Below are positions 7,341 through 55,182 of a DNA stretch of 64,000 bases, in pieces (position 1 is the stretch's first letter; the number at the start of each line of letters is the position of its first letter). The position numbers and the translations under genes are program-made. The notes under the pieces were generated by a model that saw only the letters and a list, made by a program, of their open reading frames with translations, was not told where the DNA came from and searched no databases. This DNA comes from Bacteroidetes bacterium GWF2_35_48 (GTDB lineage: Bacteria > Bacteroidota > Bacteroidia > Bacteroidales > GWF2-35-48), in NCBI GenBank assembly GCA_001769125.1, contig MEOG01000089.1, forward strand, positions 1-64,000, read 5' to 3'.

Positions 7341-7664
7341 ATGGCAAGTTTCGGACAATTTATTAAATCAGAAAGAGAAAAAAGAGAATGGACACAAACG
7401 GAGTTTGGTGCTAAAATTGGCATCAATACTAGTGCTATTTGTCGTATTGAAAATGGTAATCAAAAATTCAGTAAATCAAAATTAAAAAAATTGGCTGACC
7501 TTTTTCAAATAGACAACCAAAGCATAACAGACCTGTTTTTCGCAGATAAATTTGCTCGTGAAGCTTTCAAATACAAATGTTCTGATTCAATTTTTATTGT
7601 TGCAGAAGATACCGCAAATTATATAAAAAGTACAAATGTAAAACAAGGACAACTTGACTTATGA
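7341..7664 (+). CDS. XRE-family helix-turn-helix regulator of the restriction-modification locus
   Basis: A 107-residue cytoplasmic DNA-binding protein. Residues about 6-65 form a classical HTH_3/XRE domain (SEREKREWTQTEFGAKIGI followed by NTSAICRIENGNQKF). A tail of about 40 residues has no recognised domain. Its stop codon overlaps the start of the m5C methyltransferase gene (ATGA), so the two are translated together. By position and size it is probably the controller protein that times methylase and nuclease expression. That role is inferred from location. Confidence 0.85.
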   Translation: MASFGQFIKSEREKREWTQTEFGAKIGINTSAICRIENGNQKFSKSKLKKLADLFQIDNQSITDLFFADKFAREAFKYKCSDSIFIVAEDTANYIKSTNVKQGQLDL

Positions 7665-8659
7665 AGGACAAATTAAAATATATTGATTTGTTTTCTGGTT
7701 CAGGTGGTTTTTCGTTAGGTTTTGAGAACAAGGGGTTTCAAAATATTTTCGCAATTGATATAGAACCAAGTTTTTGTGAAACGTATAAATATAATTTTCC
7801 GAAACACAAACTAATAAAAAAAAATATTTGTGAATTATCTGACTCTGAAATTTCTTATCATAAAGAATTTGAAGAAATTGATGTTGTAATTGGAGGTCCT
7901 CCTTGTCAAGGATTTAGTATGGCTGGAAACATTGGAAGAAAGTTTATTGATGACCCAAGAAATAAATTATTCAAAGAATTTATAAGAGTTGTTAAAGTTG
8001 TGAAGCCAAACTTTTTTGTAATGGAAAATGTTGCAAGACTTTACAATCATAATAAAGGCGAAACCAGAAAAGAAATTATTAATGATTTTCAAAATATTGG
8101 GTATAAAGTAGAATGCAAAATACTTAACTCGGCAGATTATGGTGTACCACAAGTAAGGAAAAGGGTAATTTTTATTGGGACTAAACTAAAACAGGAAATT
8201 CTTTTTCCTAAAAAATCAGTAAAAAAATACTTAACAGTAAAAGAAGTGCTAGATAATTATCCGCCACTTGATTCTGGAGAAGAGTCAGCAATTCCAAATC
8301 ATATTGCAATGAATCATTCAGGGCAGATGCTTGAAAAAATGAAATATGTAAAAGATGGAGGAAATAGAGCAGAAATACCTGTAATTTTAAGACCAAAATC
8401 GGGAGATATTCGAAAATATATAAGATATAAAAGTGATGAACCATCAGTTTGTGTTACTGGCGATATGAGAAAAATATTTCATTACGAACAAAATAGAGCT
8501 TTAACAGTTCGAGAATTAGCCACATTACAATCTTATCCGGATGATTTTGTGTTTAAAGGGACAAAAATTTCGCAACAGCAACAAGTCGGCAATTCTGTGC
8601 CTCCTAAAATGGCAGAAGCAATAGCCGAAATAATTATAAAAATGAGTAAAAATGTTTAA
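7661..8659 (+). CDS. DNA (cytosine-5) methyltransferase
   Basis: A 332-residue C5-cytosine methyltransferase that transfers methyl from S-adenosylmethionine to a target cytosine. Motif I is LFSGSGGFSLGF (AdoMet binding), motif IV GGPPCQGFS carries the catalytic cysteine, motif VI is ENV, motif VIII is QVRKR, and motif X includes GNSVPP. The target-recognition region between VIII and X is short (about 100 residues). The gene overlaps the regulator before it and the adenine methyltransferase after it. Together with that enzyme it probably protects the two strands of an asymmetric site against the nuclease at 9682-10752. Confidence 0.95.
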   Translation: MKDKLKYIDLFSGSGGFSLGFENKGFQNIFAIDIEPSFCETYKYNFPKHKLIKKNICELSDSEISYHKEFEEIDVVIGGPPCQGFSMAGNIGRKFIDDPRNKLFKEFIRVVKVVKPNFFVMENVARLYNHNKGETRKEIINDFQNIGYKVECKILNSADYGVPQVRKRVIFIGTKLKQEILFPKKSVKKYLTVKEVLDNYPPLDSGEESAIPNHIAMNHSGQMLEKMKYVKDGGNRAEIPVILRPKSGDIRKYIRYKSDEPSVCVTGDMRKIFHYEQNRALTVRELATLQSYPDDFVFKGTKISQQQQVGNSVPPKMAEAIAEIIIKMSKNV

Positions 8660-11642: not shown

Positions 11643-12740
11643 ATGTATTTGAAAAATTTATCTATTGTCAATTTTAAGAATTACGAGCAGGCAGAGCTTG
11701 ATTTCTCCCCCAAGATAAATTGTTTTGTCGGCTTAAACGGATCGGGAAAAACAAATCTTCTTGATGCGGTTCATTATTTGTCGTTCTGTAAAAGCTTTTT
11801 CAATCCTATAGACAGCCAGAATATCAGACATGGCGAGGAGTACTTCGTTATACAGGGTTTATTTTTTAAAAACGAAGCGGAAGAGAATATTTACTGCGGA
11901 ATGAAGATGAATCAAAAAAAGCAGTTTAAGAGAAATAAAAAAGAGTATTCCCGGCTTGCTGATCATATCGGACTTATTCCTTTAGTAATGATTTCTCCGG
12001 AAGATTCTTTTTTAATTTCAGAAGGGAGTGAAGATCGCAGAAGATTTGTTGACAGTGTTATTTCGCAATACGACCGGGAATATCTTGAGGATTTGATTAT
12101 TTACAACCGCATTTTACAACACAGAAATAAATTACTGAAAGAGTTTGCAAATTCAGGAACTTATGATGAAGATTCACTCGAATTATGGAATGATCAGCTT
12201 ATCGCTCCCGGGAAAAAAATTCATGAAAAAAGAAAACAATTTATCGAACAGTTAATTCCTGTTTTTCAGAAATATTATGAATACATTTCATCAGGAAATG
12301 AAAGCGTGAGCCTTACCTACCAGTCGCATCTCGAAAATGAAGATTTTAAAACTCTTTTATCTTCTTCTTTGAGAAAAGATATGATTTTGCAATATACGAC
12401 AGTGGGCACGCATAAAGACGATTTGATTTTTACTGTCAATAATTTTCCATTGAAAAAGTCGGGCTCGCAGGGACAACAAAAAACGTTTCTGCTGGCTCTG
12501 AAGCTTGCGCAATTCGATTTCATAAAAAATATAAATAATTTAAACCCTTTATTATTGCTGGATGATATTTTTGATAAACTCGATGCAATAAGGGTTTCAA
12601 AGCTATTAGCTTTGGTTTCTGAAAATCATTTCGGTCAGATTTTTATTACAGATACAAATCTTGAAAGAACAGAGCAAATATTATCAAAGCTTACAATAGA
12701 TTATCAAGTTTTTAATGTAACAAAGGGAGCTATAGCCTGA
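11643..12740 (+). CDS. recF: DNA replication and repair protein RecF
   Basis: A 365-residue SMC-like ATPase of the RecFOR pathway, which helps load RecA at gapped DNA. It opens with the characteristic MYLKNLSIVNFKNYEQAELDF. The Walker A motif is GLNGSGKTN (residues about 29-37), the ABC signature region includes KKSGSQGQQKTFLLALKLA, and Walker B is NPLLLLDDIFDKLD. The length is normal. The DciA-like gene follows after 2 bases, an arrangement common in bacteria. No dnaA or dnaN lies nearby. Confidence 0.96.
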   Translation: MYLKNLSIVNFKNYEQAELDFSPKINCFVGLNGSGKTNLLDAVHYLSFCKSFFNPIDSQNIRHGEEYFVIQGLFFKNEAEENIYCGMKMNQKKQFKRNKKEYSRLADHIGLIPLVMISPEDSFLISEGSEDRRRFVDSVISQYDREYLEDLIIYNRILQHRNKLLKEFANSGTYDEDSLELWNDQLIAPGKKIHEKRKQFIEQLIPVFQKYYEYISSGNESVSLTYQSHLENEDFKTLLSSSLRKDMILQYTTVGTHKDDLIFTVNNFPLKKSGSQGQQKTFLLALKLAQFDFIKNINNLNPLLLLDDIFDKLDAIRVSKLLALVSENHFGQIFITDTNLERTEQILSKLTIDYQVFNVTKGAIA

Positions 12741-17926: not shown

Positions 17927-18202
17927 CAAAAATAATTTTCAAATAAATTATTTTTGTTATGAATGTTCGTTATTGGTTTATAAAAATTTTACTATTTTTT
18001 TAAATTCATTGATTGCCGTACTATCTTTGCGAAAATTTTAATGAAATGATTTATATTTTAGATTATTTTTATTCCTCCTGTTTTCCGGGTTCTATCCTAA
18101 AAATTAAAATAATACTCAGCGGATAAATTGTTTCTTTACTTTCTGTTTTTTCAATTTCGCTTTGCTAATTTATGTATTATTTTATTTATTAAAAAAATTG
18201 AA

Positions 18203-20215
18203 ATGCCGTTCCCAGAGTTTGATTTCTTGTTAAATAGTTCTTTAGTCATTGCATTAATTTCTATAATTGCACTTTTTTTTGTTCCTGTTAAATTAAAATC
18301 AGGTATTGCAATTGCTGCTGTTTTTATTAATGTTTTATTAACGAGTTTTGTTGCAATTACAGTCCTTACAGGAAATACCATTGATTTATTATTTTGTGCA
18401 GGCAATTTATGGGGCGATATTCCAATAAAAATTGATGGTTTGTCCGCTTGGTTTATTTTAATTATAAATTTTACTTCATTAACAGGAATCATATACGGAA
18501 AAGGCTATTTAAAAGCCTATAACGAAACATCTCCAAAATTAACAAGCCATTTTATTTGGTATATTTTATTTCATCTTTCAATGGTGTGGGTTTGTATGTT
18601 ACAGCATGGATTTGCATTTCTTGTTGCTTGGGAAATCATGTCGTTGTCCTCTATGTTACTTGTTATTTTTGATTATAATAATCCGAAAATAGTAAAGGCG
18701 GGAATGAACTATTTGGTGCAAATGCATATAAGTGTTTTGTTTTTGACTTTGGGTTTTCTCTGGGTTTATACACAAACAGGTTCTTTGAATTTTGAAGCTA
18801 TCGGAACATTTTTTTCTGGTAATTACAACGTATGGCTTTTTTTAATTTTTTTTATTGGTTTTGGTTTGAAAGCCGGTTTTATTCCTTTTCATAGCTGGTT
18901 GCCACACGCACATCCTGCTGCTCCTTCTCATGTGTCGGGAGTTATGTCGGGTGTTATCGTAAAATTAGGGATTTATGGTATTCTGAGAATTATTTCTTTT
19001 CTGAAAGCTGATTTTATAGTAATAGGTGAAATTGTTTTGATTTTATCTTTACTTACCGGCATATATGGCATTTTGCTATCTGCGGTACAGCGCGATTTTA
19101 AAAAAATGTTGGCTTATTGTACGATTGAAAATATAGGAATTGTAGGTATAGGTATAGGATTAGGATTAATGGGTCTGGGAAATAATTCTTCTATATTGTG
19201 TTTTCTTGGTTTTGGGGGTGCTCTTTTGCATGTGTTGAATCATTCTCTTTTTAAATCATTGCTATTTTACTCTGCTGGTTCGGTTTATCAGCAAACCCAT
19301 ACACGTGATATGGAAAAATTAGGAGGATTGATTAAAAGTATGCCTCGAACAGCTGGTTTGTTTTTAATTGGCGCTATTGCTATTGGAGGAATACCTCCTT
19401 TTAATGGTTTTGTTTCTGAGTTTTTAATTTATAGCGGTATTCTCGAAGGAGTTAAATCGGCATCTATAAGTCAAACGAGTTTGTTCGCTCTCACTTTTGC
19501 TGGTTTGAGCGTTATAGGTGGCATATCTATTTTAGCTTTCACTAAAACGTTTGGTACAATATTTCTTGGTGTCGCAAGAGAAAAGCTTCATCATAAACCG
19601 CATGAGGTATCTCTTACAATGTTGATTCCTCAATATACCATTGTTGCTATTATGCTTTGTGTCGCTTTTGTTCCGCAATTTTTTCTTATTCCTGTTAATA
19701 ATATTATTAATTCATTGTTTTTTTCTCCCCTTGCACTTGAGCCGATTTCTTTGGTTAATTATTCAAGTATAATTGTTAATATCAGTATTTATTCGGCTTT
19801 GTTTATTCTAATGGTATTGATGATTTGGATTATCAGAAGCAGGGTTGTTAAAACCCAACCTGTAGCAATCAGGGCTACCTGGGGGTGTGGATACGTTGCT
19901 CCTAACAATCGAATGCAATACACCGGAAAATCATTTTCAAAACCCTTTAGTAAAATTTTTAATTTTTTATTGATTGAAAAAAAACAATATTCCGAATTAA
20001 AAAACAAAGAAATTTTTCCAAAAAAAAGAAGCTATGTATCCGTTTATCATGATTTCTTTGAATACCGCTTGATTAAAAAAATCACGAATCGTATTTTATA
20101 TACAGCCAATTATTTTTTGTTTTTTCAGAATGGAAGAACGCAATCGTATGTTATGTACGGAATACTATTTATAATAGTATTAATGGTATTAACTTTTTTA
20201 AATATCATTAAATGA
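18203..20215 (+). CDS. Antiporter-like membrane subunit of a hydrogenase-4-related complex (HyfB/HycC type), first copy
   Basis: About 670 residues with some 14-16 membrane helices, homologous to HyfB/HycC and NuoL/M/N. The key ion-path features are present: the glutamate in FLVAWEIMSLSSM and the histidine/lysine segment FHSWLPHAHPAAPSHVSG ... VIVKLGIYGI. The C-terminal TWGCGYVAPNNRMQYTGKSF block is typical of the HyfB branch. The ATG at 18203 was preferred over a TTG 75 bases earlier because the N-terminal helix begins there. A TATCTTTG (-7-like) lies at 18022-18029, implying a leader of about 170 bases. The next gene overlaps by 4 bases. Confidence 0.9.
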   Translation: MPFPEFDFLLNSSLVIALISIIALFFVPVKLKSGIAIAAVFINVLLTSFVAITVLTGNTIDLLFCAGNLWGDIPIKIDGLSAWFILIINFTSLTGIIYGKGYLKAYNETSPKLTSHFIWYILFHLSMVWVCMLQHGFAFLVAWEIMSLSSMLLVIFDYNNPKIVKAGMNYLVQMHISVLFLTLGFLWVYTQTGSLNFEAIGTFFSGNYNVWLFLIFFIGFGLKAGFIPFHSWLPHAHPAAPSHVSGVMSGVIVKLGIYGILRIISFLKADFIVIGEIVLILSLLTGIYGILLSAVQRDFKKMLAYCTIENIGIVGIGIGLGLMGLGNNSSILCFLGFGGALLHVLNHSLFKSLLFYSAGSVYQQTHTRDMEKLGGLIKSMPRTAGLFLIGAIAIGGIPPFNGFVSEFLIYSGILEGVKSASISQTSLFALTFAGLSVIGGISILAFTKTFGTIFLGVAREKLHHKPHEVSLTMLIPQYTIVAIMLCVAFVPQFFLIPVNNIINSLFFSPLALEPISLVNYSSIIVNISIYSALFILMVLMIWIIRSRVVKTQPVAIRATWGCGYVAPNNRMQYTGKSFSKPFSKIFNFLLIEKKQYSELKNKEIFPKKRSYVSVYHDFFEYRLIKKITNRILYTANYFLFFQNGRTQSYVMYGILFIIVLMVLTFLNIIK

Positions 20216-22239
20216 TATTAATAACGTCATTCATATTAATTCCATTTTTAGCCATTTTTATAATTCCATTTATTACTTTTAAATGGAAAGGATTTTTGTT
20301 GTTTGCTGCAATTCTGGTTGAAGCTGCTATCTCAAGTTATTTTGCGGTTAACACGTTAATGGGAGAAACGTATAATTTTGCTTTTCAGGGTAGCTTAATT
20401 ACAGGAGTTATCAATTTACAGATAGATGCGCTATCCGGATGGTTTATTATGATTTTCAATCTTATTTTTCTTACGGGGAGCTTTTATGGTTTGTTCTATA
20501 TGAAAGCATACAAAAATCAGAGCCACAATATAAGTATGCATTATATTGTAATGATTTTAACACATGCTTCGTTGTTAAGTATCTGTGTAATTCAAAATAG
20601 CATTGCTTTTTTAATTGCATGGGAAATTATGGCGGTATCTGCTTTTTTTGCTGTAATTTTTGAACATGAAAAAACAGGAACAAATAAAGCGGGTTTAAAT
20701 TATTTGATACAAGCGCATGTTTCAATAGTTTTTCTAATGCTTGGATTTATTTATGTGGCTTACAAAACCGGAAGTTACGATTTCAGTGCCATATCCATCT
20801 ATTCTGAGCAACATGCAGGAGCTGCTGTTTATGCTTTATTTATATTTTTTTTTATTGGGTTTGCCATAAAAGCAGGATTTGTTCCTTTTCATACCTGGCT
20901 TCCTTATGCACATCCCGCTGCGCCTGCACACATATCCGGTATTATGTCAGGTGTGTTAATAAAAGCAGGAATTTTCGGTATTCTTAGAATGTTGCTACTG
21001 ATAAAAACAAATTACACAACACTGGGATATATTATTCTGACTTTTTCCGTTATTTCCGGTCTTTATGGTGTAATGCTTGCAATAGTACAACATAATTTGA
21101 AAAAGTTGCTGGCATATCATAGTATAGAAAACATAGGGATTATTGGTATTGGCATCGGATTAGGTTGTGTGGGTCTTGGCTCCGGAAATTTAATACTTGC
21201 ATCCTTGGGATTTGCAGGCGCTTTATTGCACGTATTAAATCATGCCCTTTTTAAATCACTTTTATTTTATACCGCGGGAATTGTTTATCAGGCAACCCAT
21301 ACGTTAAATATTGAACAAATGGGCGGTCTTATAAAAAAAATGCCTCAAACGGCACTGCTTTTTTTATTAGCTGCAATAGCTATATGTGGTATCCCTCCTT
21401 TTAATGGCTTTGTATCGGAATTTATTATTTATAGCGGTTTATTTCATTGGTTGCAAAATCCATCTCTTATGTCAATTATTGCAGCCATAATGGTTGTGTT
21501 TGGTTTGGTATTAATAGGAGGTCTTGCATTGTTGTGTTTTACAAAAGCTTTTGGTGTTGTTTTTCTGGGAAGCCCCCGCCATCCATTGCATCATGAAGTG
21601 AAAGAAGCTCCTTTTTTTCAGTTATTACCTCTATATATTCTTGCATTTTTTATAGTTTCTATAGGTTTGTTTCCTAAAGTTTTTTTAAGTATATTATCAA
21701 GACCATTAAGTTTGTTTACAGGTGTAACGAACCTGTCTTTTTTATCTCCCAATTCAACAAGTATAGACAGCGTACAACATATAAGCTGGATGTCGTGGGG
21801 TTTAATATTATTTATTTTTTTCGTCTATTTAATTCGTTATTTTTTTACAAAAAATCGTAAAGAAATTATTTCCACAACCTGGGGATGCGGTTATATTGCC
21901 CCCACACCTAAACTTCAATATACTGCAAGTTCTTTTGTGAGAAGTTATAGTAAATTATTTGGCGTACTCTTATTTTTTAATAAAAAAGAAAAATTAGTTC
22001 ATGGCGTATTTCCTAAGGAAGCTCATTATGAAACGCGTCCTTACGATAAAATGGAAAAGTGGTTAATTGATAAATTTTTACATCAATTAACAACAGGGTT
22101 CAATAAATTTCATTTTTTAAGTCATGGAAAACTTCAGTTTTACATACTGAATGGTGTTCTTTTTATTTTAGCTGTTTTATTTATTCCTGTTATTATTGAT
22201 AATATTTTAAGTTTCATTGCATTTTTAAAACAACTATAA
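20212..22239 (+). CDS. Antiporter-like membrane subunit of the same complex, second copy
   Basis: A 675-residue paralogue of the preceding subunit. It keeps the same landmarks: AWEIMAVSAFFAV, FHTWLPYAHPAAPAHISG, VLIKAGIFGI and the C-terminal TWGCGYIAPTPKLQYTASSF. It starts in the ATGA overlap with gene one and ends 2 bases before the next gene. In Hyf the corresponding places are filled by HyfB and HyfD. Here both are HyfB-like, which suggests a local duplication. Two such subunits imply two ion channels in addition to the HyfF-like one. Confidence 0.9.
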   Translation: MILITSFILIPFLAIFIIPFITFKWKGFLLFAAILVEAAISSYFAVNTLMGETYNFAFQGSLITGVINLQIDALSGWFIMIFNLIFLTGSFYGLFYMKAYKNQSHNISMHYIVMILTHASLLSICVIQNSIAFLIAWEIMAVSAFFAVIFEHEKTGTNKAGLNYLIQAHVSIVFLMLGFIYVAYKTGSYDFSAISIYSEQHAGAAVYALFIFFFIGFAIKAGFVPFHTWLPYAHPAAPAHISGIMSGVLIKAGIFGILRMLLLIKTNYTTLGYIILTFSVISGLYGVMLAIVQHNLKKLLAYHSIENIGIIGIGIGLGCVGLGSGNLILASLGFAGALLHVLNHALFKSLLFYTAGIVYQATHTLNIEQMGGLIKKMPQTALLFLLAAIAICGIPPFNGFVSEFIIYSGLFHWLQNPSLMSIIAAIMVVFGLVLIGGLALLCFTKAFGVVFLGSPRHPLHHEVKEAPFFQLLPLYILAFFIVSIGLFPKVFLSILSRPLSLFTGVTNLSFLSPNSTSIDSVQHISWMSWGLILFIFFVYLIRYFFTKNRKEIISTTWGCGYIAPTPKLQYTASSFVRSYSKLFGVLLFFNKKEKLVHGVFPKEAHYETRPYDKMEKWLIDKFLHQLTTGFNKFHFLSHGKLQFYILNGVLFILAVLFIPVIIDNILSFIAFLKQL

Positions 22240-22241
22240 TT

Positions 22242-23147
22242 ATGTTGAGTTTACTATTAATATTAATTGCTGCTGCTTTTTTTTCAGGCATTATTGTTCG
22301 AACAAAAAGTATTGCTTCAGGGCGAAAAGGTCCAGGGGTTTTTCAGCCTATAAAAGATGTAATACGCTTGTTTAAAAAAGGTGCTGTATATAGCGAAACA
22401 ACCAGTATTATTTTCAGAATAGCTCCAACTATTTACTTTGCATCTGTTGTTATGGCAATTCTTGTCATCCCTTTTGATGAGTCAAAAGGAATTATAAGTT
22501 TTAAAGGAGATTTTATTTTCTTTGCCTACGTACTAGCTCTGGGTAAATTTTTCAATATTATTGCGGCAATGGATACCGGCAGCAGTTTTGAGGGAATGGG
22601 CGCCAGTCGTGAAGCACTATTTTCTATGTTTGCAGAACCCGCTTTTTTTATTTTGATGGGTTCACTTGCATTACTTACCGGTCATACTTCTTTTCAGGAA
22701 ATTTTCTATTCCTTACACGTTGGCTCTTATATATCTTATGCAATTACAACTCTGGCAACATTTGTATTAATAATGATAACAATGATTGAGAACAGCAGGA
22801 TGCCCATTGACGATCCGAAGACACATCTTGAACTTACGATGGTGCATGAAGTGATGATTTTAGATAACAGTGGTTTTGATCTTGGGCTTATTCTTACAAC
22901 GGGTTATTTGAAGTTTGCTATGTATGGAGCACTTATTGTAAATTTATTTATTGGGATGGTTCCTTATCAATACAGTATTCCTATGTTTTTTATTATTCAA
23001 TTTATTATTGCAGTTGTCGTAGGTTTAATTGAATCTTTTATGGCTCGTTTCAGAATGGGCCACAACGCACAATATATTTTTGCTTTGACCTCTGTAAGCT
23101 TGCTTATTTTTTTCGGGGTGCTTCTCGTTTTAGAAAAATTTGTTTAA
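22242..23147 (+). CDS. HyfC/HycD-like (NuoH-type) membrane subunit
   Basis: A 301-residue membrane protein with about eight helices, related to HyfC, HycD and NuoH. This subunit links the soluble arm to the ion-pumping arm. Diagnostic sequence: ENSRMPIDDPKTHLELTMVHE (residues about 186-206), the cytoplasmic loop that contacts the catalytic subunit, and the N-terminal KGPGVFQPIKDVIRLFKKG. Both are intact, so the connection between the two arms seems preserved even though the catalytic subunits are altered. Confidence 0.92.
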   Translation: MLSLLLILIAAAFFSGIIVRTKSIASGRKGPGVFQPIKDVIRLFKKGAVYSETTSIIFRIAPTIYFASVVMAILVIPFDESKGIISFKGDFIFFAYVLALGKFFNIIAAMDTGSSFEGMGASREALFSMFAEPAFFILMGSLALLTGHTSFQEIFYSLHVGSYISYAITTLATFVLIMITMIENSRMPIDDPKTHLELTMVHEVMILDNSGFDLGLILTTGYLKFAMYGALIVNLFIGMVPYQYSIPMFFIIQFIIAVVVGLIESFMARFRMGHNAQYIFALTSVSLLIFFGVLLVLEKFV

Positions 23148-23162
23148 TTTAATCTTAACACA

Positions 23163-23792
23163 ATGGTAAACGTATTGCTTATAACATTTTTAATGACCCT
23201 TTTCTATATTGCTATTGCGAACAGGATATTAACATTTATAAGGGTTCTTGCAGTGCAAGGTGTTCTTTTATTTTTTGTTGTTTTGTTTCAATTAGAAGAA
23301 ATAAATACATTTAATTTAATATTGATTTTAATGGAAACAATTTTTTTTAAATCAATTGCTGTTCCTTTATTTTTAGCTTATATTATTAAAAGAAACAAAA
23401 TAACACGAGAAGCTGAACCTTATTTGCCTAATTTTGTATCTCTGATTATTACAACCAGTATAGTTGTAGCAACAATACTTCTCACAAATGCTATTAAAGA
23501 TTCTGCACTCGATAAAATATTTTTTATTGTGGCGCTCTCTTCATTATTTACGGGGCTATATTTTATTATAACCCGCAGAAAAATTGTTACTCATATCATG
23601 GGTTATCTCGTTATTGAAAATGGAGTATTTGTACTTTCTCTTGCAGTTGGAACAGAAATGACACACCTTGTAAATGTTGGTATCATGCTCGATATTTTTG
23701 TTAGTGTATTGGTTCTGGGAATTTTTGTAAACAGAATTGGTAATACTTTTGAGGAAATGAGTGTAGATAATTTAACAAATTTAAAAGATTAA
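23163..23792 (+). CDS. HyfE-like membrane subunit
   Basis: A 209-residue membrane protein with about six or seven helices, occupying the position and size of HyfE (a NuoK-containing subunit). The conserved segment is GYLVIENGVFVLSLAVG, with a glutamate in the membrane as in NuoK. It lies 15 bases after the HyfC-like gene and 5 bases before the HyfF-like gene. The family match rests mainly on this motif and on gene order. Confidence 0.85.
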   Translation: MVNVLLITFLMTLFYIAIANRILTFIRVLAVQGVLLFFVVLFQLEEINTFNLILILMETIFFKSIAVPLFLAYIIKRNKITREAEPYLPNFVSLIITTSIVVATILLTNAIKDSALDKIFFIVALSSLFTGLYFIITRRKIVTHIMGYLVIENGVFVLSLAVGTEMTHLVNVGIMLDIFVSVLVLGIFVNRIGNTFEEMSVDNLTNLKD

Positions 23793-23797
23793 AAAAG

Positions 23798-25228
23798 ATG
23801 TTTACGTATTACATTATTTTTGCGATTTTACTTGCAATAGGTTCTTTTTTTAATAGGAATATTCTCCTGCGAAAAATTATGCTTGTTGCTTTTTTGCTTT
23901 TGCAAACAGGTATAGCCGTTTACGGATTTTTAAACTTGCATAAAACAGAAATGGAATTTTTTACCTATGATTCCCTTGGTATTATTTTTCTTTGCGTATT
24001 AACTATTTTGAGCTATACTACGATTTATCATAGTTATATTTATTTGCAACACAGAAAAGATAATACTAGAAATCAAAGTTTGTATTTTTTCGCCTTGATA
24101 CTTCTTATTATTTCTATGACTTGTGTTTATCTTGCAAATCATTTAGGAGTACTATGGGTTTTTATTGAAGCAACTACTTTAAGTGTGGCGGTATTGATTT
24201 ATCACGAGCGTACGCAGCTTTCGTTAGAAGCTACATGGAAATATGTTTTTATTTGTTCTATCGGTATTACTTTTGCTTTTGTAGGGATTATTTTTTTAAG
24301 CAAAGGACTACAGGGCTCTGGTTCTTCAAGTCTTATTCTGGCAGATATTCCTGCTCATTTGAAAAATGCAAATGTTTTTTGGCTTAAACTTGCTTTTATT
24401 TTTATGCTTGTTGGTTTTAGTACAAAAATGGGGCTTTTCCCAATGCATACAATTGCTGTAGATGCGCATACTGTTGCTCCTCCTCCTATCAGTGCCTTTA
24501 TTTCCACAACACTCATGAATGTTGGATTTATTTCTATTTTTCGTACCTATTCTCTTATGGCGGGCACAAGTATTCAACCGTGGATGAATTCTATCCTGCT
24601 TTGGTGTGGTTTGTTATCAATTTTTGTTTCAGTGGTATATATTCTTAAAGTTAATCATTTGAAGAGAATGTTTGCCTACTCAAGTCTTGAGCACATGGGA
24701 CTCGCTGCAATTGGTATAGCTACTGGAGGAATCGGTTATTTTGCGGCTATTTTTCACATGGTGCTCCACTCATTTGTGAAAGCAAGTGTTTTTTATCAGA
24801 TTGACCAGATTCATCGGGTTTTTCACACCTATATATTAAGTAAAACAGGAAATTATTTTAGCAAAAATATAACAGGCGCTATTGTAATGCTGATTTTATT
24901 AATTAGTATAACCGCAATGCCACCGTCGGGTCTTTTTGTTTCTGAATTTTTAATTTTCCGGTCTATGTTTGAAGCGCATCAGATAATGGCTTTATTGTTT
25001 ATTTTGGTGTTATTTACTCTTGTTATGTGGGCGCTTGGTAAAAATATTTTAAAAATGTTATTTGTTCCTTCATCTCATCCTATTGAAACCAAAGAACCGT
25101 TGAAAATACGACCCATAGAATCCGTTTCTCAATTTGTATTATTAGCCGGTGCTATTTATCTGGGATTAAACCCTCCTGCTCAATTAGTAAATTTAATTAA
25201 TGAAAGTATAATGCTTTTACCCAAATAA
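23798..25228 (+). CDS. HyfF-like antiporter-type membrane subunit
   Basis: A 476-residue membrane subunit of the NuoL/M/N superfamily, closest in layout to HyfF. Landmarks are FIEATTLSVAVLIYHE (helix-5 glutamate), STKMGLFPMHTIAVDAHTVA with the PPPISAFIS turn, and HLKRMFAYSSLEHMGLAAIG. It is the third antiporter-like subunit of the operon. A gap of one base separates it from the NuoCD-like gene, so translation is coupled. Confidence 0.9.
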   Translation: MFTYYIIFAILLAIGSFFNRNILLRKIMLVAFLLLQTGIAVYGFLNLHKTEMEFFTYDSLGIIFLCVLTILSYTTIYHSYIYLQHRKDNTRNQSLYFFALILLIISMTCVYLANHLGVLWVFIEATTLSVAVLIYHERTQLSLEATWKYVFICSIGITFAFVGIIFLSKGLQGSGSSSLILADIPAHLKNANVFWLKLAFIFMLVGFSTKMGLFPMHTIAVDAHTVAPPPISAFISTTLMNVGFISIFRTYSLMAGTSIQPWMNSILLWCGLLSIFVSVVYILKVNHLKRMFAYSSLEHMGLAAIGIATGGIGYFAAIFHMVLHSFVKASVFYQIDQIHRVFHTYILSKTGNYFSKNITGAIVMLILLISITAMPPSGLFVSEFLIFRSMFEAHQIMALLFILVLFTLVMWALGKNILKMLFVPSSHPIETKEPLKIRPIESVSQFVLLAGAIYLGLNPPAQLVNLINESIMLLPK

Positions 25229-25229
25229 T

Positions 25230-26729
25230 ATGAATTATATAACTTTATTTAATCAGCAAACAGTCCCTGTTGCTTCCATTCCTGAAATAAACTATTTTGA
25301 GTTTTTGGAATTGAATACCGGATTCATACGTGGTCATAAAGAAAGGCATTGCGTTAATTATTTTGGTTGCATTGAAAATGAAAAGGTAAAACTATATTGC
25401 TGTATAGCCGACGACCTTACACATGAAATTTTTGTTTCATCCAGTATTGTTAAAACTTCTAGTATTTATGCCTCTTTTACTTCACGTTGTCTTTGTTTTG
25501 AAAAATTTGAACGAGAAATACACGAGAATTTTGGAATTAAATACAATGATCATCCGTGGTTAAAACCTGTTCGCTATGCACACAACCGTTCCGATAAAAA
25601 TAAAACCATTGCCAATTATCCTTTTTATTCCATTGATAGCGAAGAATTGCATGAAGTGGGTGTTGGCCCTATTCATGCCGGAATTATTGAACCAGGGCAC
25701 TTTAGGTTTTTGTGTAATGGCGAACAAATTTTACACCTCGAAATACAATTAGGATTCCAACACAGGGGGATTGAATCTTTATTTTTAGAAAAGAAAAAAA
25801 TAAATCAACGGGCAACTTTAGCAGAAAATATTGCAGGCGATACAGTAATCGGGCACACAAGTGCTTTCTCTTATTTATGGGAAAGTTTATGTGGTTTCAA
25901 CACAACGAATGACATAGCCTTTGCCAGAACTTTGGCGCTTGAAATTGAACGTATCGCTATACATACAGGTGATTTAAGTGCTGTTTGTACAGACATCGCC
26001 TATCAGTTGGGAAGCTCTGTTTTTGGTCGTCTGCGAACTCCTGTTATCAATTTTTTTCAGGAATGGTGTGGAAACCGCTTGTCAAAAAGTCTCGTGCGCC
26101 CGGGTTGTAATTTGTTCCCCTTTACTCCTACTCTTGCGATACGTTTAACAGATATTTTAAATGCTTTTGAACCTGATTTTACGGAAATGGTTACAGAGTT
26201 ATTTAAATTGCCAAGCGCATTATCTCGCTTTGAACGTACCGGAGTTGTTTCGCAAGAAGATGTATTATCTTTAGGCACAGTAGGACCTTCTGCGCGCATG
26301 AACGCATTGAACCGCGACATAAGATTATCACATCCTTTTGGTTTATGGAAAAATATAAAACATGACCCGATAATTAAACATCATGGCGATGTATACTCAC
26401 GTGTACAGATTCGAAAAGAAGAAGTTATTCAGTCTATTCAATACATACGCACATTGATTGAAAATATTCCTGAATGTACAACCTATGAAAATGTTTTAGA
26501 GAAACCAAAACCCGATTCGTTTGTTATATCACTAATTGAAGGATGGCGTGGTGAAATTTGTCATTGCGCAATAACCGATTCTTTAGGAGAACTAAAAATG
26601 TATAAAATCAAAGATCCTTCATTTCATAATTGGCTGGCATTGGCTTTAGCTGTTAGAAATAATGAGATTTCAGATTTTCCAATATGTAATAAAAGTTTCA
26701 ATTTATCTTATTGTGGCCATGATTTGTAG
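25230..26729 (+). CDS. HyfG/HycE-like (NuoC-NuoD fusion) subunit lacking NiFe-site cysteines
   Basis: A 499-residue soluble subunit made of a NuoC-like domain (about 1-120; HENFGIKYNDHPWLKPVRY) and a NuoD/hydrogenase-large-subunit domain. HRGIESL (179-185) is kept. Where active group 4 hydrogenases have a CxxC in the ERVCGIC region, this protein reads AENIAGDTVIGHT (199-210), with no cysteine. At the C-terminus the second CxxC is missing too: the protein ends NLSYCGHDL with one cysteine. It therefore cannot hold a normal NiFe centre. This places it with the energy-converting hydrogenase-related (Ehr) proteins. What it reacts with, if anything, is unknown. Confidence 0.9.
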   Translation: MNYITLFNQQTVPVASIPEINYFEFLELNTGFIRGHKERHCVNYFGCIENEKVKLYCCIADDLTHEIFVSSSIVKTSSIYASFTSRCLCFEKFEREIHENFGIKYNDHPWLKPVRYAHNRSDKNKTIANYPFYSIDSEELHEVGVGPIHAGIIEPGHFRFLCNGEQILHLEIQLGFQHRGIESLFLEKKKINQRATLAENIAGDTVIGHTSAFSYLWESLCGFNTTNDIAFARTLALEIERIAIHTGDLSAVCTDIAYQLGSSVFGRLRTPVINFFQEWCGNRLSKSLVRPGCNLFPFTPTLAIRLTDILNAFEPDFTEMVTELFKLPSALSRFERTGVVSQEDVLSLGTVGPSARMNALNRDIRLSHPFGLWKNIKHDPIIKHHGDVYSRVQIRKEEVIQSIQYIRTLIENIPECTTYENVLEKPKPDSFVISLIEGWRGEICHCAITDSLGELKMYKIKDPSFHNWLALALAVRNNEISDFPICNKSFNLSYCGHDL

Positions 26730-26934
26730 GAAGAGTAATAAGGAAAAGGAATTGTAGGAATCGTTCCATACTTCGACTTCGCTCATTTCGACTACGCTCA
26801 ATGCATCGCAGCACAGGTGGAACGATTGTACAATACGAGGCAAAAGGCAAAAGTTAGAAATTAAATTATTAGTAAATTTTCAAATTAGCACATTTTCAAA
26901 TTTTCAAATTGGCACATTAGCACATAAAAAATAT
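26730..26934. repeat. Repeat-rich insertion between the last two genes of the operon
   Basis: An inverted repeat, AATCGTTCCA (26759-26768) and TGGAACGATT (26818-26827), extends outward through ATTGTA/TACAAT. Its loop contains the CTTCGACTTCGCTCA-type sequence. It is followed by short direct repeats of TTTTCAAATT and GGCACATTAGCACA (26877-26924). All other gene junctions in this operon are 15 bases or less, so this looks like inserted material. It may form a terminator-like hairpin or a stability element. Confidence 0.7.
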
Positions 26935-27690
26935 ATGATTTCAAATATTAAAATATTATACCATCAGGGAAAGCAGTTTATACCCGATGTAACAACAGTG
27001 GAAGTTCCCGGTATTTTCAGGGGCAGACCTATTATTTCTGTTAATAAAATTGACGAGAATTTATTACGTGAATTATGCCCTACAGAGGCTATTGCAACGA
27101 ACCCTGTTTCTATTGATTTAGGAAAATGCACATTTTGCGGAGCTTGCGCGGCAAAATTTCCAGACAAAATTTCTTTTACAAAAGAGTATAAATTATCTGT
27201 AAATAAAAGAGAAGATTTAATTATTTATGAAGGAGTAGATAAGCCGCTTGTATTGGATGAAAATCGTATTCGTAAAGAAATTCGAAGCATGTTTGGCGGC
27301 TCGTTAAAACTTCGTCAGATATCTGCGGCAGGCGATAACAGTTGTGAATGGGAACTGAACGCAGCGGGTAATGTTAATTTTGATATGGGTCGTTTTGGAA
27401 TTGAATTCGTAGCTTCTCCACGTCATGCAGATGGGATTGTTATTACGGGTCCCATTTCCGAGAACATGGCAGAACCAACTCAGATTTGTTACGATGCAAC
27501 ACCCGATCCGAAAATAATTATTCTTGCAGGAACAGATGCCATTAGTGGTGGAATTTTTTCTGGCGCTCCTGCTTTAAATAGAAGTTTTCTTGATAAATAT
27601 CCCATTGATTTGTATATTGCAGGTAATCCGGTTCACCCTTTGGCTTTTATCAATGGAGTGTTGGCGCTTATTAGAAAGAAGAAAAAGTGA
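26935..27690 (+). CDS. Ferredoxin-HyfI (NuoB-like) fusion with most proximal-cluster ligands missing
   Basis: A 251-residue soluble subunit. The N-terminal half has one ferredoxin-type [4Fe-4S] site: C48P, then C65TFC68GAC71. The C-terminal half aligns with hydrogenase small subunits/NuoB through ITGPISENM, GTDAISGGIFSG and AGNPVHPLAF. At the usual cluster ligands only C137 (DNSCEWE, where relatives have CNGCE) remains. The later ligands are D201 and N231 in place of cysteines. The standard proximal cluster is therefore unlikely. This single fused gene replaces separate HyfH and HyfI and completes the operon. Confidence 0.88.
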   Translation: MISNIKILYHQGKQFIPDVTTVEVPGIFRGRPIISVNKIDENLLRELCPTEAIATNPVSIDLGKCTFCGACAAKFPDKISFTKEYKLSVNKREDLIIYEGVDKPLVLDENRIRKEIRSMFGGSLKLRQISAAGDNSCEWELNAAGNVNFDMGRFGIEFVASPRHADGIVITGPISENMAEPTQICYDATPDPKIIILAGTDAISGGIFSGAPALNRSFLDKYPIDLYIAGNPVHPLAFINGVLALIRKKKK

Positions 27691-50948: not shown

Positions 50949-52706
50949 TTATCTTAAAATTTTGCGCGCAAAAGCAACTGTAAAGTACGACATCATAAAA
51001 ACTCCGAAAAAAGGTTCAAGTCCAGCCACAAGCCTTGCTGCTCCTGTTAAAGGAAGAATTTCTCCGTATCCGACAGTAAAAAAAGTTATTGTACTATAAT
51101 ACACAGTTGCTCCAAATTGGGAAATAATATCAAGTTGATTTTTAGGATCAATGTTTCCGTATGCCTCGGAATTATACATAAAAACGATAAAGTGCAGAAC
51201 AGAAAAAAACAGCAAAGTAAGCGCCGCACTCAATAACACGCGAAAGGGATCGGTTGCATACTTCCCCATTTTGTCATACAGCAGCCATTTCAATGCAAAC
51301 ATACTATAATGTAAAACTGCGACTTTAGGCTTTGATATTAAAGCCTCCTGCAATTCTGCCCGTTCTTCGTATCTTTTAAACAGCACGTAAGCTTTATCTT
51401 CATAATCATAATTCCCATTAGCATTAAAATTTTGCTTTAAAATTCTGAATTGCTCTGATTTTTCCCGGTTGTTTGTTTTTTTCTGATCTGTAATTAATTT
51501 TTCTACATTATTTGCTTTCCAGTCCATGTAAATTCTGCCTAACAGACACAATCCGGTTAAATTTAAGTATTTTATCTCTACAGGAAACTCTGATGGCTTC
51601 AACTCTACAAGATCGCGCACTACAACGCCGGATAAATCAATATAACTGCACTTTGCAACACGCAAATCGAAATGATCTGAAAAAATAGTTGATTTAAATG
51701 AAAGAATGTGAGCCTTTGTCCCGTAAAAAGAGACCTTCCCTTCTCCAAATTTTGCTTTATCGAAGGTTATATCTGAGTGTTCAAATTCCAAATAGTCAAA
51801 ATTCATATCGCCTGAATTAAACTCAGCACTGTTGAATGTAATTTTACCGGAATTTAAACTACAGCCTTCAAAACTGATATCTCCAACGCCAAAAAAAGTT
51901 CTGTTAAAATTAATTTTCCCATCGTGAAAATCTACTTTACTGAAATCAACTTTTCCGTGACCAAATTCGGTACGTTCAAAACTCATATTTCCTTCTCCGA
52001 ACTTAGCAAATCGAAAATCAATTTTTCCATCTCCGAACCTCGCTATTTTAAAAGAAACTTCTCCGTTATTAAAATCAGTATTTACAAAAGAAACATTACC
52101 GTTATTAAAATCAGCATTGGTAAAAGTTACCCTACCGGTTCCGAATTTTGCATCATCAAAATTTTTATATCCATTTCCGAGAATTGTATTTTTAAAATTT
52201 AACTCCCCATCGCCAAATGTTGTATTAGAAAAATCGAGATTCCCATCTTTGGTATGCACATAGCTGAAGTCAATTCCTGTAGCACCAAACTTGCTGGAGT
52301 GAAAATCTATGGGACCGTTTAAAAAAGCTGCATTATTAAAATTCAGTGGCGACTGAATAAATTCTCCATAAGAAAAATCATTTTTAGAATGGGTATCAAA
52401 AATAGTTTCTTTTGCAGAGAATGAACGTATTTGAATATATTGATCTTTTTTCAGTCCTCTTGATTTTCTAAACGTACTCAGGCTGAAATTTTCACAATAA
52501 CAATAATCAATATCAATATCTTTTCCTTCGTCTATAAGTTTATAAATATCTTCCGTATCTATGTATCCAAGCTCAACATACGACAATTCCTTTTTGTTTT
52601 CATCAAAAAAAGAAATAGCAGCAGTATTTTCAAATTCTTTACCATCTTCTGTCTTAAATGGATTGTTTCGGATTTTTACTTTATAGCTGTGATAAACAGG
52701 CAACAT
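50949..52706 (-). CDS. Two-helix K+ channel fused to an 18 x 12-residue repeat domain
   Basis: A 585-residue protein. Residues 1-114 form an N-terminal domain without recognised motifs. Residues 115-330 are exactly 18 repeats of 12 residues with the pattern x-F-G/N-x-G-x-hydrophobic-x-F-x-x-T/A (for example KFGEGNMSFERT). A beta-strand-rich segment (331-390) and a helical linker follow. The end is an ion-channel module: helix FRVLLSAALTLLFFSVLHFI, pore with selectivity filter TVGYG, and helix FFGVFMMSYFTVAFA. Pentapeptide-repeat channels are known, but the unit here is 12 residues. It is the first gene of the operon with the HAMP protein and trkH. Confidence 0.9.
   Translation of the reverse strand: MLPVYHSYKVKIRNNPFKTEDGKEFENTAAISFFDENKKELSYVELGYIDTEDIYKLIDEGKDIDIDYCYCENFSLSTFRKSRGLKKDQYIQIRSFSAKETIFDTHSKNDFSYGEFIQSPLNFNNAAFLNGPIDFHSSKFGATGIDFSYVHTKDGNLDFSNTTFGDGELNFKNTILGNGYKNFDDAKFGTGRVTFTNADFNNGNVSFVNTDFNNGEVSFKIARFGDGKIDFRFAKFGEGNMSFERTEFGHGKVDFSKVDFHDGKINFNRTFFGVGDISFEGCSLNSGKITFNSAEFNSGDMNFDYLEFEHSDITFDKAKFGEGKVSFYGTKAHILSFKSTIFSDHFDLRVAKCSYIDLSGVVVRDLVELKPSEFPVEIKYLNLTGLCLLGRIYMDWKANNVEKLITDQKKTNNREKSEQFRILKQNFNANGNYDYEDKAYVLFKRYEERAELQEALISKPKVAVLHYSMFALKWLLYDKMGKYATDPFRVLLSAALTLLFFSVLHFIVFMYNSEAYGNIDPKNQLDIISQFGATVYYSTITFFTVGYGEILPLTGAARLVAGLEPFFGVFMMSYFTVAFARKILR
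51717..52364 (-). repeat. Coding tandem repeat of 18 x 36 bases
   Basis: The region encodes the 12-residue repeats of the channel protein without any insertion or deletion between units. The units differ clearly at the DNA level, so the repeat is old rather than freshly expanded. Confidence 0.9.
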
Positions 52707-52923
52707 AATTTTTTGATTTAAATCTGATACAAATATATTTATAATATCTAAAAGAAATATTTACAAGGTAAGGATTTTTAAAACAAGACCATTTTTTTTA
52801 ATTATTGAGTCTTATCCGAAAAGGCTTTTTTATTTTTTATGGGAAAACTTTTTCATATAGTAGACTCCTTTTTTTGTTTAAGAGATTTATTATCTTTACC
52901 TCAAATTTTAAAACATTTATACT

Positions 52924-55182
52924 ATGAAAGCATTGTTACAAAATCGCTATCTTTATATATTTTGTTTATTTTTCTTCTTTACTCTGGCACAATTTGAAAT
53001 AACAGTATCTGCTTCTGAGCCACAACAAACGAGTACAGTAGTATCAGCAGATATTACAACCCAAACCGATTCCCACGAAAGTAAAAAAGAAGAAAGTCAT
53101 GGAGGCATGGAACCCTTATTCTTTATTGTGGTGGCTTTATTGTTAGGAGCTGCTGCAAAACATTTTTTAAAGAAAAGTCCGGTTCCCTACACGGTTTTAC
53201 TTTTGCTTATAGGGCTTGCGCTTGGTGCTACATCAAAGCTTAATTTATTTGCAGGGAATTTTCATACCATGGATGTTGCTCTAAATTGGGCAGGAAATTT
53301 TGATCCGCAACTTATACTCTTTGTTTTCTTGCCCACTCTTATTTTTGAAGCTGCTTTTGCGTTAGATGTACATGTATTTAAAAAATCGGTTGTTAATGCT
53401 ACAATTTTTGCGGTTCCCGGACTTTTGGTTTCAATGGTAATTACTGCTGCTTTTGCAATAGCCTGTGGCTATTTTAATATCGGACTGGAAGGATGGAGCT
53501 GGGCGTTTGCATTGATGTTCGGAGCGGTTGTCAGTGCGACAGACCCGGTTGCTGTTGTATCTTTACTTAAAGAATTAGGTGTAAGTAAAAAATTAGGAAC
53601 TCTTATAGATGGAGAATCTTTGCTGAATGACGGAACATCCATTGTTGTTTTTATGGTATTTTTCCTCGGTTTTACAGGAGCTGCCAGTGGGAACAATGCG
53701 ATTGTAGAATTTATCAGAGTGGCTATAGGAGGCGTGGCTGTTGGTGTTATCATCGGATGGATTGCCATAAAATGGCTGAAAAATGTATACAACAATGCAA
53801 TGGTTGAAATCAGTATAATTATTGCTGTGGCTTATCTTACGTTTTTTACTGCAGAACATTTTTTCCATGTATCGGGTGTAATGGCATTGGTTGCTTATGG
53901 CTTGTATATGGCCGGCTCTGGAAAAACGAAAATCAGCCCCGAGGTAACAGGCTTCCTTCATGAATTCTGGGAACTTGCAGCATTTATTGCCAATACATTA
54001 ATTTTTATCATTGTAGGTGTGGTTGTTGCGCATCAGGCGGTATTTACAGCGGGCGATTTTGTTACACTTATTATTATTTATATTGGAATTCATGTTGCCC
54101 GTGGGGTAATGATTCTTTTATTTTTTCCTGTTGTCAGAAAAATTGGTTACGGCTTGACAGGCAAACAGGCTGTTGTAGTATGGTTCGGAGGTCTGCGCGG
54201 TGCTATTGCCTTGGCTTTGGCTCTTGTTGTTATGGGTGTGGATGATAAATATATTCCTCTTGAAATCCGTAACCAATTTATGTTTTTAACGGCCGGTCTT
54301 GTTGTATTAACACTACTTATTAATGCTACTACCATAAAATTTGTAATTAAAAAATTAGGACTTTCTGATGTTGCTGCCGAAAAAATTCAATTGTTTCAAA
54401 ATGCACAAAAATATCTACAGGAAAATGCGTTGAGTCTTGTTGAACGACTGAAAAAAAACAAACACATTGCTCAGGCTGACTGGTCGCTTGTTAAAAAATA
54501 TATTCCTGCTGTAGCTGAAATAAAAAATGAGAGTATTCAATCCAACACTATAGCAGAAATCAGAAGACGACTTCTTGAAAAAGAAAAAAGCAGTTACTGG
54601 AGCCAGTTTAACGAAGGTATGCTTGGTGCTGTGGCAGTTAAAAATCTTACCGACTCAGTTAGTCAGAAATTAGATGAAGAAGGCAGGATATCTTTGTCTC
54701 TACGAAAAAATATGGAAGATATTTTACACATGCCCAAATACTTGCTCCGTTTAAATAACATCTCCTGGCTTGCTTGGTTTGCACAAAAAGCTTTCAATAA
54801 TCGTTTAATGCTGGGGTTTGACTGCGCCCGGGGTTTCATTGAAGCTCAAGAAGAAGTAACAGTACTCTTCGAAGAAATAAAAAAAACGATGACAGGAGAA
54901 GAAAACGAAAAAATCATTGAAATTCTCGATAGTGAAATTAATGAAAACAAAATTTTGCGCGGTACATTTATGCGTAACCTTAAAAAAATATTCCCTGACA
55001 TCTACAAGGCATTATCTACCCAACATGCTATACGAAGCCTTTTAAATCATGAGAAAAAAATGATAGAAAAACTGCTGCATGATGGACGTATTGAAACGGA
55101 TGAAGCAGAAGAAATGATTACGAAGGTGGACGAAAAAATTAAAAAGATAATGGCCATGCCACTTGGAAAGGTTGTGGGATAG
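52924..55182 (+). CDS. CPA1-family Na+/H+ antiporter with long C-terminal domain
   Basis: A 752-residue membrane antiporter. A signal-like N-terminal helix and polar stretch are followed by about 12 helices (65-480). The ion-binding motifs FGAVVSATDPVAVVSLLKELG and LIDGESLLNDGTSIVVF are typical of NhaP/SOS1-like exchangers, and VWFGGLRGAIALALALVV carries the conserved arginine. The cytoplasmic C-terminal ~270 residues are helical and charged, as in plant SOS1 and long bacterial NhaP. It is divergent from the K+ channel operon, sharing a 217-base upstream region. Confidence 0.92.
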   Translation: MKALLQNRYLYIFCLFFFFTLAQFEITVSASEPQQTSTVVSADITTQTDSHESKKEESHGGMEPLFFIVVALLLGAAAKHFLKKSPVPYTVLLLLIGLALGATSKLNLFAGNFHTMDVALNWAGNFDPQLILFVFLPTLIFEAAFALDVHVFKKSVVNATIFAVPGLLVSMVITAAFAIACGYFNIGLEGWSWAFALMFGAVVSATDPVAVVSLLKELGVSKKLGTLIDGESLLNDGTSIVVFMVFFLGFTGAASGNNAIVEFIRVAIGGVAVGVIIGWIAIKWLKNVYNNAMVEISIIIAVAYLTFFTAEHFFHVSGVMALVAYGLYMAGSGKTKISPEVTGFLHEFWELAAFIANTLIFIIVGVVVAHQAVFTAGDFVTLIIIYIGIHVARGVMILLFFPVVRKIGYGLTGKQAVVVWFGGLRGAIALALALVVMGVDDKYIPLEIRNQFMFLTAGLVVLTLLINATTIKFVIKKLGLSDVAAEKIQLFQNAQKYLQENALSLVERLKKNKHIAQADWSLVKKYIPAVAEIKNESIQSNTIAEIRRRLLEKEKSSYWSQFNEGMLGAVAVKNLTDSVSQKLDEEGRISLSLRKNMEDILHMPKYLLRLNNISWLAWFAQKAFNNRLMLGFDCARGFIEAQEEVTVLFEEIKKTMTGEENEKIIEILDSEINENKILRGTFMRNLKKIFPDIYKALSTQHAIRSLLNHEKKMIEKLLHDGRIETDEAEEMITKVDEKIKKIMAMPLGKVVG

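Follow-up and report, generated by a model that had tools for sequence, protein, structure and literature searches.

An Ehr complex with a fixed Asp/Asp/Asn set at the proximal cluster site and a conserved pocket and membrane arm

In a seven-gene operon for an energy-converting-hydrogenase-related (Ehr) complex from Bacteroidetes bacterium GWF2_35_48, the electron wire is, as far as can be read from sequence, cut at both entry and exit, with the pocket and the pump kept and strong selection acting on what is left. The operon lies in a stretch of 64,000 nucleotides, here called the window. What is new is the D-x-D-N set that stands in place of the Ehr proximal-cluster cysteines; loss of the NiFe site itself is general for Ehr. 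We found no earlier description of an Ehr complex lacking the proximal-cluster cysteines or carrying D-x-D-N in the literature searched, which covered few subscription papers, and absence of such a description is not proven.

The seven reading frames at 18203-27690 are all open, collinear, tightly packed and in the same direction, and the subunits that a sequence-only reading of the window had assigned to them were confirmed by both Pfam and NCBIfam. The Pfam domains are Proton_antipo_M in three subunits, NADHdh, Oxidored_q2/HyfE, Complex1_30kDa+49kDa and Fer4+Oxidored_q6, with the Oxidored_q2, 30kDa and Fer4 matches scoring slightly below the Pfam cut-offs. The features are as follows.

18005..18029 (approximate), + strand: putative promoter (TTG, then TATCTTTG) ahead of the operon
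18203..20215, + strand: B1, HyfB-like antiporter-like subunit, 670 aa (NCBIfam hydrogenase 4 subunit B, 1e-150; E144/K223/K254/E406)
20212..22239, + strand: B2, HyfB-like antiporter-like subunit, 675 aa, paralogue of B1 (E138/K220/K251/E403)
22242..23147, + strand: NuoH/HyfC-like membrane anchor, 301 aa (PF00146, 5e-35; E-channel/coupling residues conserved)
23163..23792, + strand: HyfE-like subunit, 209 aa (NF008556, 4.7e-21; E152 and D177 conserved)
23798..25228, + strand: HyfF-like antiporter-like subunit, 476 aa (NCBIfam hydrogenase 4 subunit F, 2e-68; E124/K210/E383)
25230..26729, + strand: NuoC/D-like (HyfG-like) large subunit, 499 aa (Complex1_30kDa+49kDa; predicted fold resembles FHL HycE)
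26730..26934, no strand: intergenic insert of a dispersed palindromic repeat, between the large- and small-subunit genes
26935..27690, + strand: ferredoxin-NuoB/HyfI-like fusion, the small subunit, 251 aa (Fer4+Oxidored_q6; one [4Fe-4S] site)

The candidate promoter would be of the Bacteroidota type (TTG/TAnnTTTG); no FNR box was found upstream of the operon. The B1 and B2 genes overlap by 4 bp and the following four gaps are 1-15 bp, whereas the gap between the large- and small-subunit genes is 205 bp, against a median of 18 bp in relatives. The palindromic repeat that fills it is dispersed genome-wide, with at least 50 matches in the organism's own genome. A Crp/Fnr-like regulator, named from sequence, lies upstream in divergent orientation in seven loci (e.g., L142 418-1134), the window not among them.

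Alignment of the small subunit indicates that its three cluster sites have met three different fates: drift has erased the entry cluster, a fixed new set has taken the place of the proximal cluster, and one cluster survives. At the ligand positions of the proximal (N2-type) [4Fe-4S] cluster, the window has D134, C137, D201 and N231, so that three of the four cysteines are replaced, whereas all four are kept in E. coli HyfI/HycG and in most of the Ehr relatives sampled (Cys-type: L036-L050, Variovorax, Rhodococcus, Azospirillum and Cupriavidus). The D-x-D-N set occurs in the window and about 120 relatives. In 42 sequences not selected for D-x-D-N (40 loci read from an order-level search, L035 and the window), D201 and N231 are present in all and D134 in 41, the remaining one having Glu; the C137 position drifts, being Cys in 32 and otherwise Ala, Ser, Gly, Asn or Thr. 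Nine class-level matches read later, the window among them, show the same pattern. A further body of 80 named loci was found partly by a pattern containing D201 and is independent for D134 and N231, not for D201. E138 and E140 are conserved near-perfectly, as are D134, D201 and N231. Within the same 42 sequences, three of the Cys positions of the entry ferredoxin cluster drift and are sometimes gapped, and Phe predominates at the fourth; by contrast with these lost sites, the ligands of the retained [4Fe-4S] cluster (C48, C65, C68 and C71) are invariant (42/42). By homology and by what is known of NuoI, this cluster would lie next to N2.

Of the 251 positions in the small subunit, only eight have become fixed for a different residue than in Cys-type Ehr, and cluster ligands make up three of them (hypergeometric P about 8e-5). 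The dN/dS ratio is about 0.05, with synonymous sites near-saturated, and the AlphaFold2 model has an intact fold (pLDDT 86; TM 0.81 to MBH MbhJ, rmsd 1.9 Å). These data point to a replacement of the proximal ligands that is specific and under strong purifying selection. The sequence-only reading had described a soluble arm without the usual metal sites; this holds for the NiFe, entry and proximal ligands and fails for the intact [4Fe-4S] site. Its term 'inactivated' for the catalytic arm is misleading for a specific, strongly selected replacement with one cluster kept. The loss of the NiFe, entry-cluster and N2 ligands together might also be taken to mark a relic operon in decay, but this is hardly credible when all frames are open, dN/dS is so low and the same substitutions recur in about 120 sequences; the low dN/dS and the conservation led us to reject a pseudogene.

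The main rival to the explanation that we prefer below is a new metal cofactor at D134/D201/N231. Here D-x-D-N would bind a redox cofactor (e.g., mononuclear Fe or Mn) in place of the proximal cluster, and the complex would be a redox-driven pump with its acceptor in the pocket. Such a site would fit the near-perfect conservation of D134, D201, N231, E138 and E140, the one [4Fe-4S] cluster retained, and a new near-invariant cysteine of the large subunit, C444, which is perhaps part of it. We nevertheless consider it rather unlikely, as the entry cluster is lost too and an independent loss in Meiothermus (below) shows a set different from D-x-D-N. We also know of no cofactor site of D-x-D-N composition, which counts against it. 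If D-x-D-N does hold a metal, it would be a new kind of redox relay.

The Meiothermus case is an Ehr small subunit on plasmid pMESIL01 of Allomeiothermus (Meiothermus) silvanus (L210 11278-12150). Like the window protein, it lacks the entry-cluster and N2 ligands and keeps the same single [4Fe-4S] cluster; unlike it, it sits on a separate branch and has replacements other than D-x-D-N. The two clusters were lost independently on pMESIL01. Ehr small subunits of Rhodococcus (L209 4065-4607) and Azospirillum (L212 11493-12032) have no ferredoxin domain and keep the N2 cysteines, the opposite way of losing electron input.

The large subunit is, judging by its aligned residues, not a hydrogenase. 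The NiFe ligands of HycE (C241/C244/C531/C534) align to A202/T205/S493/G496, the last two of which show no variation among all 126 Ehr sequences examined. Pocket residues of the kind named for FHL (PMC9474812) are kept, namely H149, E154 (the counterpart of the HycE loop glutamate E193), H245, R356, E398 and the canopy residue R440, and the AlphaFold2 model matches FHL HycE (7z0s_E). A further invariant residue, D204, is new and falls within the stretch that forms the CGIC motif of HycE. Since D204, S493, G496, R440, H245 and E398 are equally invariant in Ehr with and without the wire, the role of the pocket is probably independent of electrons delivered by N2. Three cysteines, C41, C444 and C446, hardly vary within the D-x-D-N clade and are missing from most Cys-type Ehr; C444, present in 110 of 111 sequences, adjoins H445 and stands four residues past R440.

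By published criteria (PMC4378227, PMC6349859), the predicted complex is an Ehr. Its subunit set is that of a group 4 hydrogenase or complex I-like enzyme, antiporter-like subunits included, and the motifs RxCGxCxxxH and DPCxxC, whose absence from the large subunit defines Ehr (PMC4378227), are both missing. In a large-subunit tree whose references are E. coli hydrogenases and NuoCD only, it falls outside the HyfG/HycE branch, with NiFe-less relatives from Variovorax, Cupriavidus and Meiothermus. The Ehr-type placement suggested by the sequence-only reading was thus upheld, and neither finding that it had named as fatal, an intact HyfG/HyfI elsewhere in the genome or a position inside an active hydrogenase clade, was made: a profile search found no such gene, and the branch is not a HyfG/HycE one. 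A hydrogenase elsewhere was rejected, because neither a NiFe hydrogenase large subunit (PF00374) nor HypD was found in the genome (6.0 Mb, 98% complete). Only the operon's own copies pass the PF00346 and PF01058 cut-offs, a 14-bit PF00346 match on another contig (C82) lying below; with no second NuoB or NuoD, the genome seems to be without complex I as well. It carries two NqrB/RnfD-type proteins. A congeneric genome (G483, 90% complete) shows no copy of the small subunit and has an ordinary NuoB-like protein.

On the same sequence criteria, the complex would be neither a hydrogenase, a complex I nor an MBS. Group 4 [NiFe] hydrogenases have the four NiFe cysteines, HypD in the genome and a four-Cys proximal [4Fe-4S] cluster, all of which are lacking here. 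Respiratory complex I is likewise excluded by the absent N2 ligands and by the lack of an electron-input module (NuoE/F/G) in the operon. An MBS-type sulfane reductase has a three-Cys [4Fe-4S] catalytic site, against at most one proximal Cys left in the window.

Comparison with known systems brings out what is shared and what is not. The Ehr complexes of Sulfobacillus (PMC4378227) and Riflemargulisbacteria (PMC6349859) have the same HyfB/NuoH/HyfE/HyfF/NuoCD/NuoB set and no NiFe ligand motifs, but most relatives keep the proximal cysteines, whereas the window clade carries D-x-D-N together with just one cluster of the ferredoxin type. E. coli hydrogenase 4 and FHL (HyfA-I, HycB-G; 7z0s, PMC9474812) have homologous subunits, and the HycE proton-path and canopy residues E193, R478, H284 and E437 are retained here; the NiFe cysteines, the N2-type cluster, the HyfA/HyfH-type cluster chain and the maturation genes are not. 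MBS of Pyrococcus furiosus (PMC7684303), also a complex I relative with the NiFe cysteines partly lost, offers the closest parallel to an altered proximal cluster, which there has three cysteines; MBS, however, holds a [4Fe-4S] cluster at that site and reduces polysulfide, while the window complex keeps at most one of the four cysteines. Respiratory complex I (NuoB/NuoCD/NuoH/NuoLMN) shares three antiporter-like subunits, the E-channel and a NiFe-less large-subunit pocket; the window complex differs in having HyfE/HyfF-type subunits, an Ehr-type pocket signature and neither NADH module nor N2.

The membrane arm is, by its conserved residues, intact, in keeping with the earlier claim that its ion-path residues are kept. 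All three antiporter-like subunits retain the Glu of TM5, the Lys of TM7 and the Glu of TM12 (residues listed above with each gene), as an alignment to E. coli HyfB/D/F and NuoL/M/N shows. The middle Lys is present in B1 and B2, and the HyfF-like subunit has N241 there, as does E. coli HyfF. In the NuoH-like subunit, the conserved coupling residues are D90, D111, E124, E132, E183, D190, H195, E197, H202, E203 and E264; in 102 D-x-D-N and 14 Cys-type relatives these acidic and His residues show little or no variation. Like the coupling residues, the membrane lysines and glutamates are conserved to the same degree as in Ehr with the full wire. A conserved membrane arm beside a broken electron wire is also what would be expected if the soluble arm were a scaffold for assembling the membrane arm, which would then be a constitutive antiporter or proton channel with a structural [4Fe-4S] cluster. 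We regard this as improbable, because an invariant pocket signature and an exact D-x-D-N set would be unexpected for a mere scaffold.

NuoL-like subunits drive vectorial CO2 hydration in DAB and NDH-1MS, and by analogy the membrane gradient might power some non-redox reaction in the pocket that is conserved here. The pocket and the coupling path are kept without the electron path, and Pfam and NCBIfam assignments reveal no MrpE/F/G-like genes in the operon that would form a dedicated Na+ module, both of which would suit such a reaction. The same assignments, however, show no carbonic-anhydrase-like or other catalytic domain in the operon, and in our judgement this alternative is decidedly improbable.

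The explanation that we tentatively prefer, as plausible though well short of assured, is that the complex translocates ions while its soluble arm has ceased to conduct electrons, and that it is gated by the redox state of its single cluster, by protonation of the pocket or by a ligand. The ion is most likely H+, given that the operon lacks a Na+ module of the Mrp type. The complex would descend from an Ehr in which the through-arm wire was dismantled and the remainder kept. In the FHL relay, inter-cluster distances are under 14 Å (PMC9474812); removal of N2 should leave a gap from cluster to pocket above roughly that limit, and electrons would be unable to reach the large-subunit pocket at useful rates. 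The drive could be the membrane gradient, or a ligand or proton event in the pocket. The remaining [4Fe-4S] cluster might serve as a redox sensor or gate, or as a structural element. D-x-D-N might relay charge or protons, or bind a metal other than in an Fe-S cluster, maintaining the coupling between arm and membrane.

In favour of the preferred translocator are the specific ligand replacement, the invariant retained cluster and pocket, the kept membrane and coupling residues, the low dN/dS, the pMESIL01 parallel, a genome in which Rnf/Nqr-type proteins but no NiFe hydrogenase, HypD or other NuoB/NuoD were found, and the lack of a conserved partner oxidoreductase. The operon stands alone, with no neighbouring gene, a partner oxidoreductase included, conserved across about 120 loci; the commonest neighbours occur in only 5-8 of them. 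Against it, the invariant [4Fe-4S] cluster and C444 hint at a retained redox function, and an alternative cofactor at D-x-D-N would restore the electron path. For known Ehr, a redox reaction coupled to ion translocation is only suspected (PMC6349859, PMC4378227). The sequence-only reading had offered an ion pump or antiporter driven by ferredoxin or by another partner, or a redox switch without catalysis; with both entry and exit clusters lost, ferredoxin is unlikely to drive the complex by the usual wire, and given two breaks in the electron path, the switch is tentatively favoured over the pump or antiporter. The more sweeping claim, of a complex I-superfamily machine without any electron transfer, with a pump gated or driven by a non-redox input and Asp/Asp/Asn at the N2 site, is possible but doubtful.

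The function of Ehr is an open question, and how events in the pocket drive complex I proton pumping is debated. Here the electron wire appears to have been taken out in evolution and the pocket, coupling path and pump left in place; the cultured Chryseolinea serpens and Niastella vici are among the species concerned, which makes the question testable. If ions move without electron flow, coupling would be conformational or electrostatic and need no N2 electrons; a true absence of electron transfer would show that pocket-membrane coupling works without electrons.

The loci sampled are mainly from Bacteroidota, plus five plasmids. A close relative of the window protein is found in about 43 of 198 genomes of the order, and the operon in 16 of 395 genomes of the class. 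The seven-gene type of layout recurs in more than 100 loci, far beyond chance. B1 and B2 arose by one duplication within the clade; many relatives carry one HyfB copy and a separate duplication occurred in another Ehr lineage (L040/L041/L043), so two HyfB paralogues do not define the system, contrary to the sequence-only reading. D-x-D-N itself probably, though not certainly, had a single origin. An IQ-TREE analysis of H+E+CD nests the Cys-type L036 inside the D-x-D-N clade (support 94; AU p 0.05 against one clade), whereas in a tree of CD alone L036 falls outside, as sister to a single D-x-D-N clade; L036 has a long branch and odd composition. Elsewhere in the window, an ion-channel protein and a Na+/H+ exchanger-family protein are encoded divergently at 50949-55182, and a C-5 cytosine methylase (7661-8659) and an SMC/AAA ATPase-type protein (11643-12740) lie a few genes apart.
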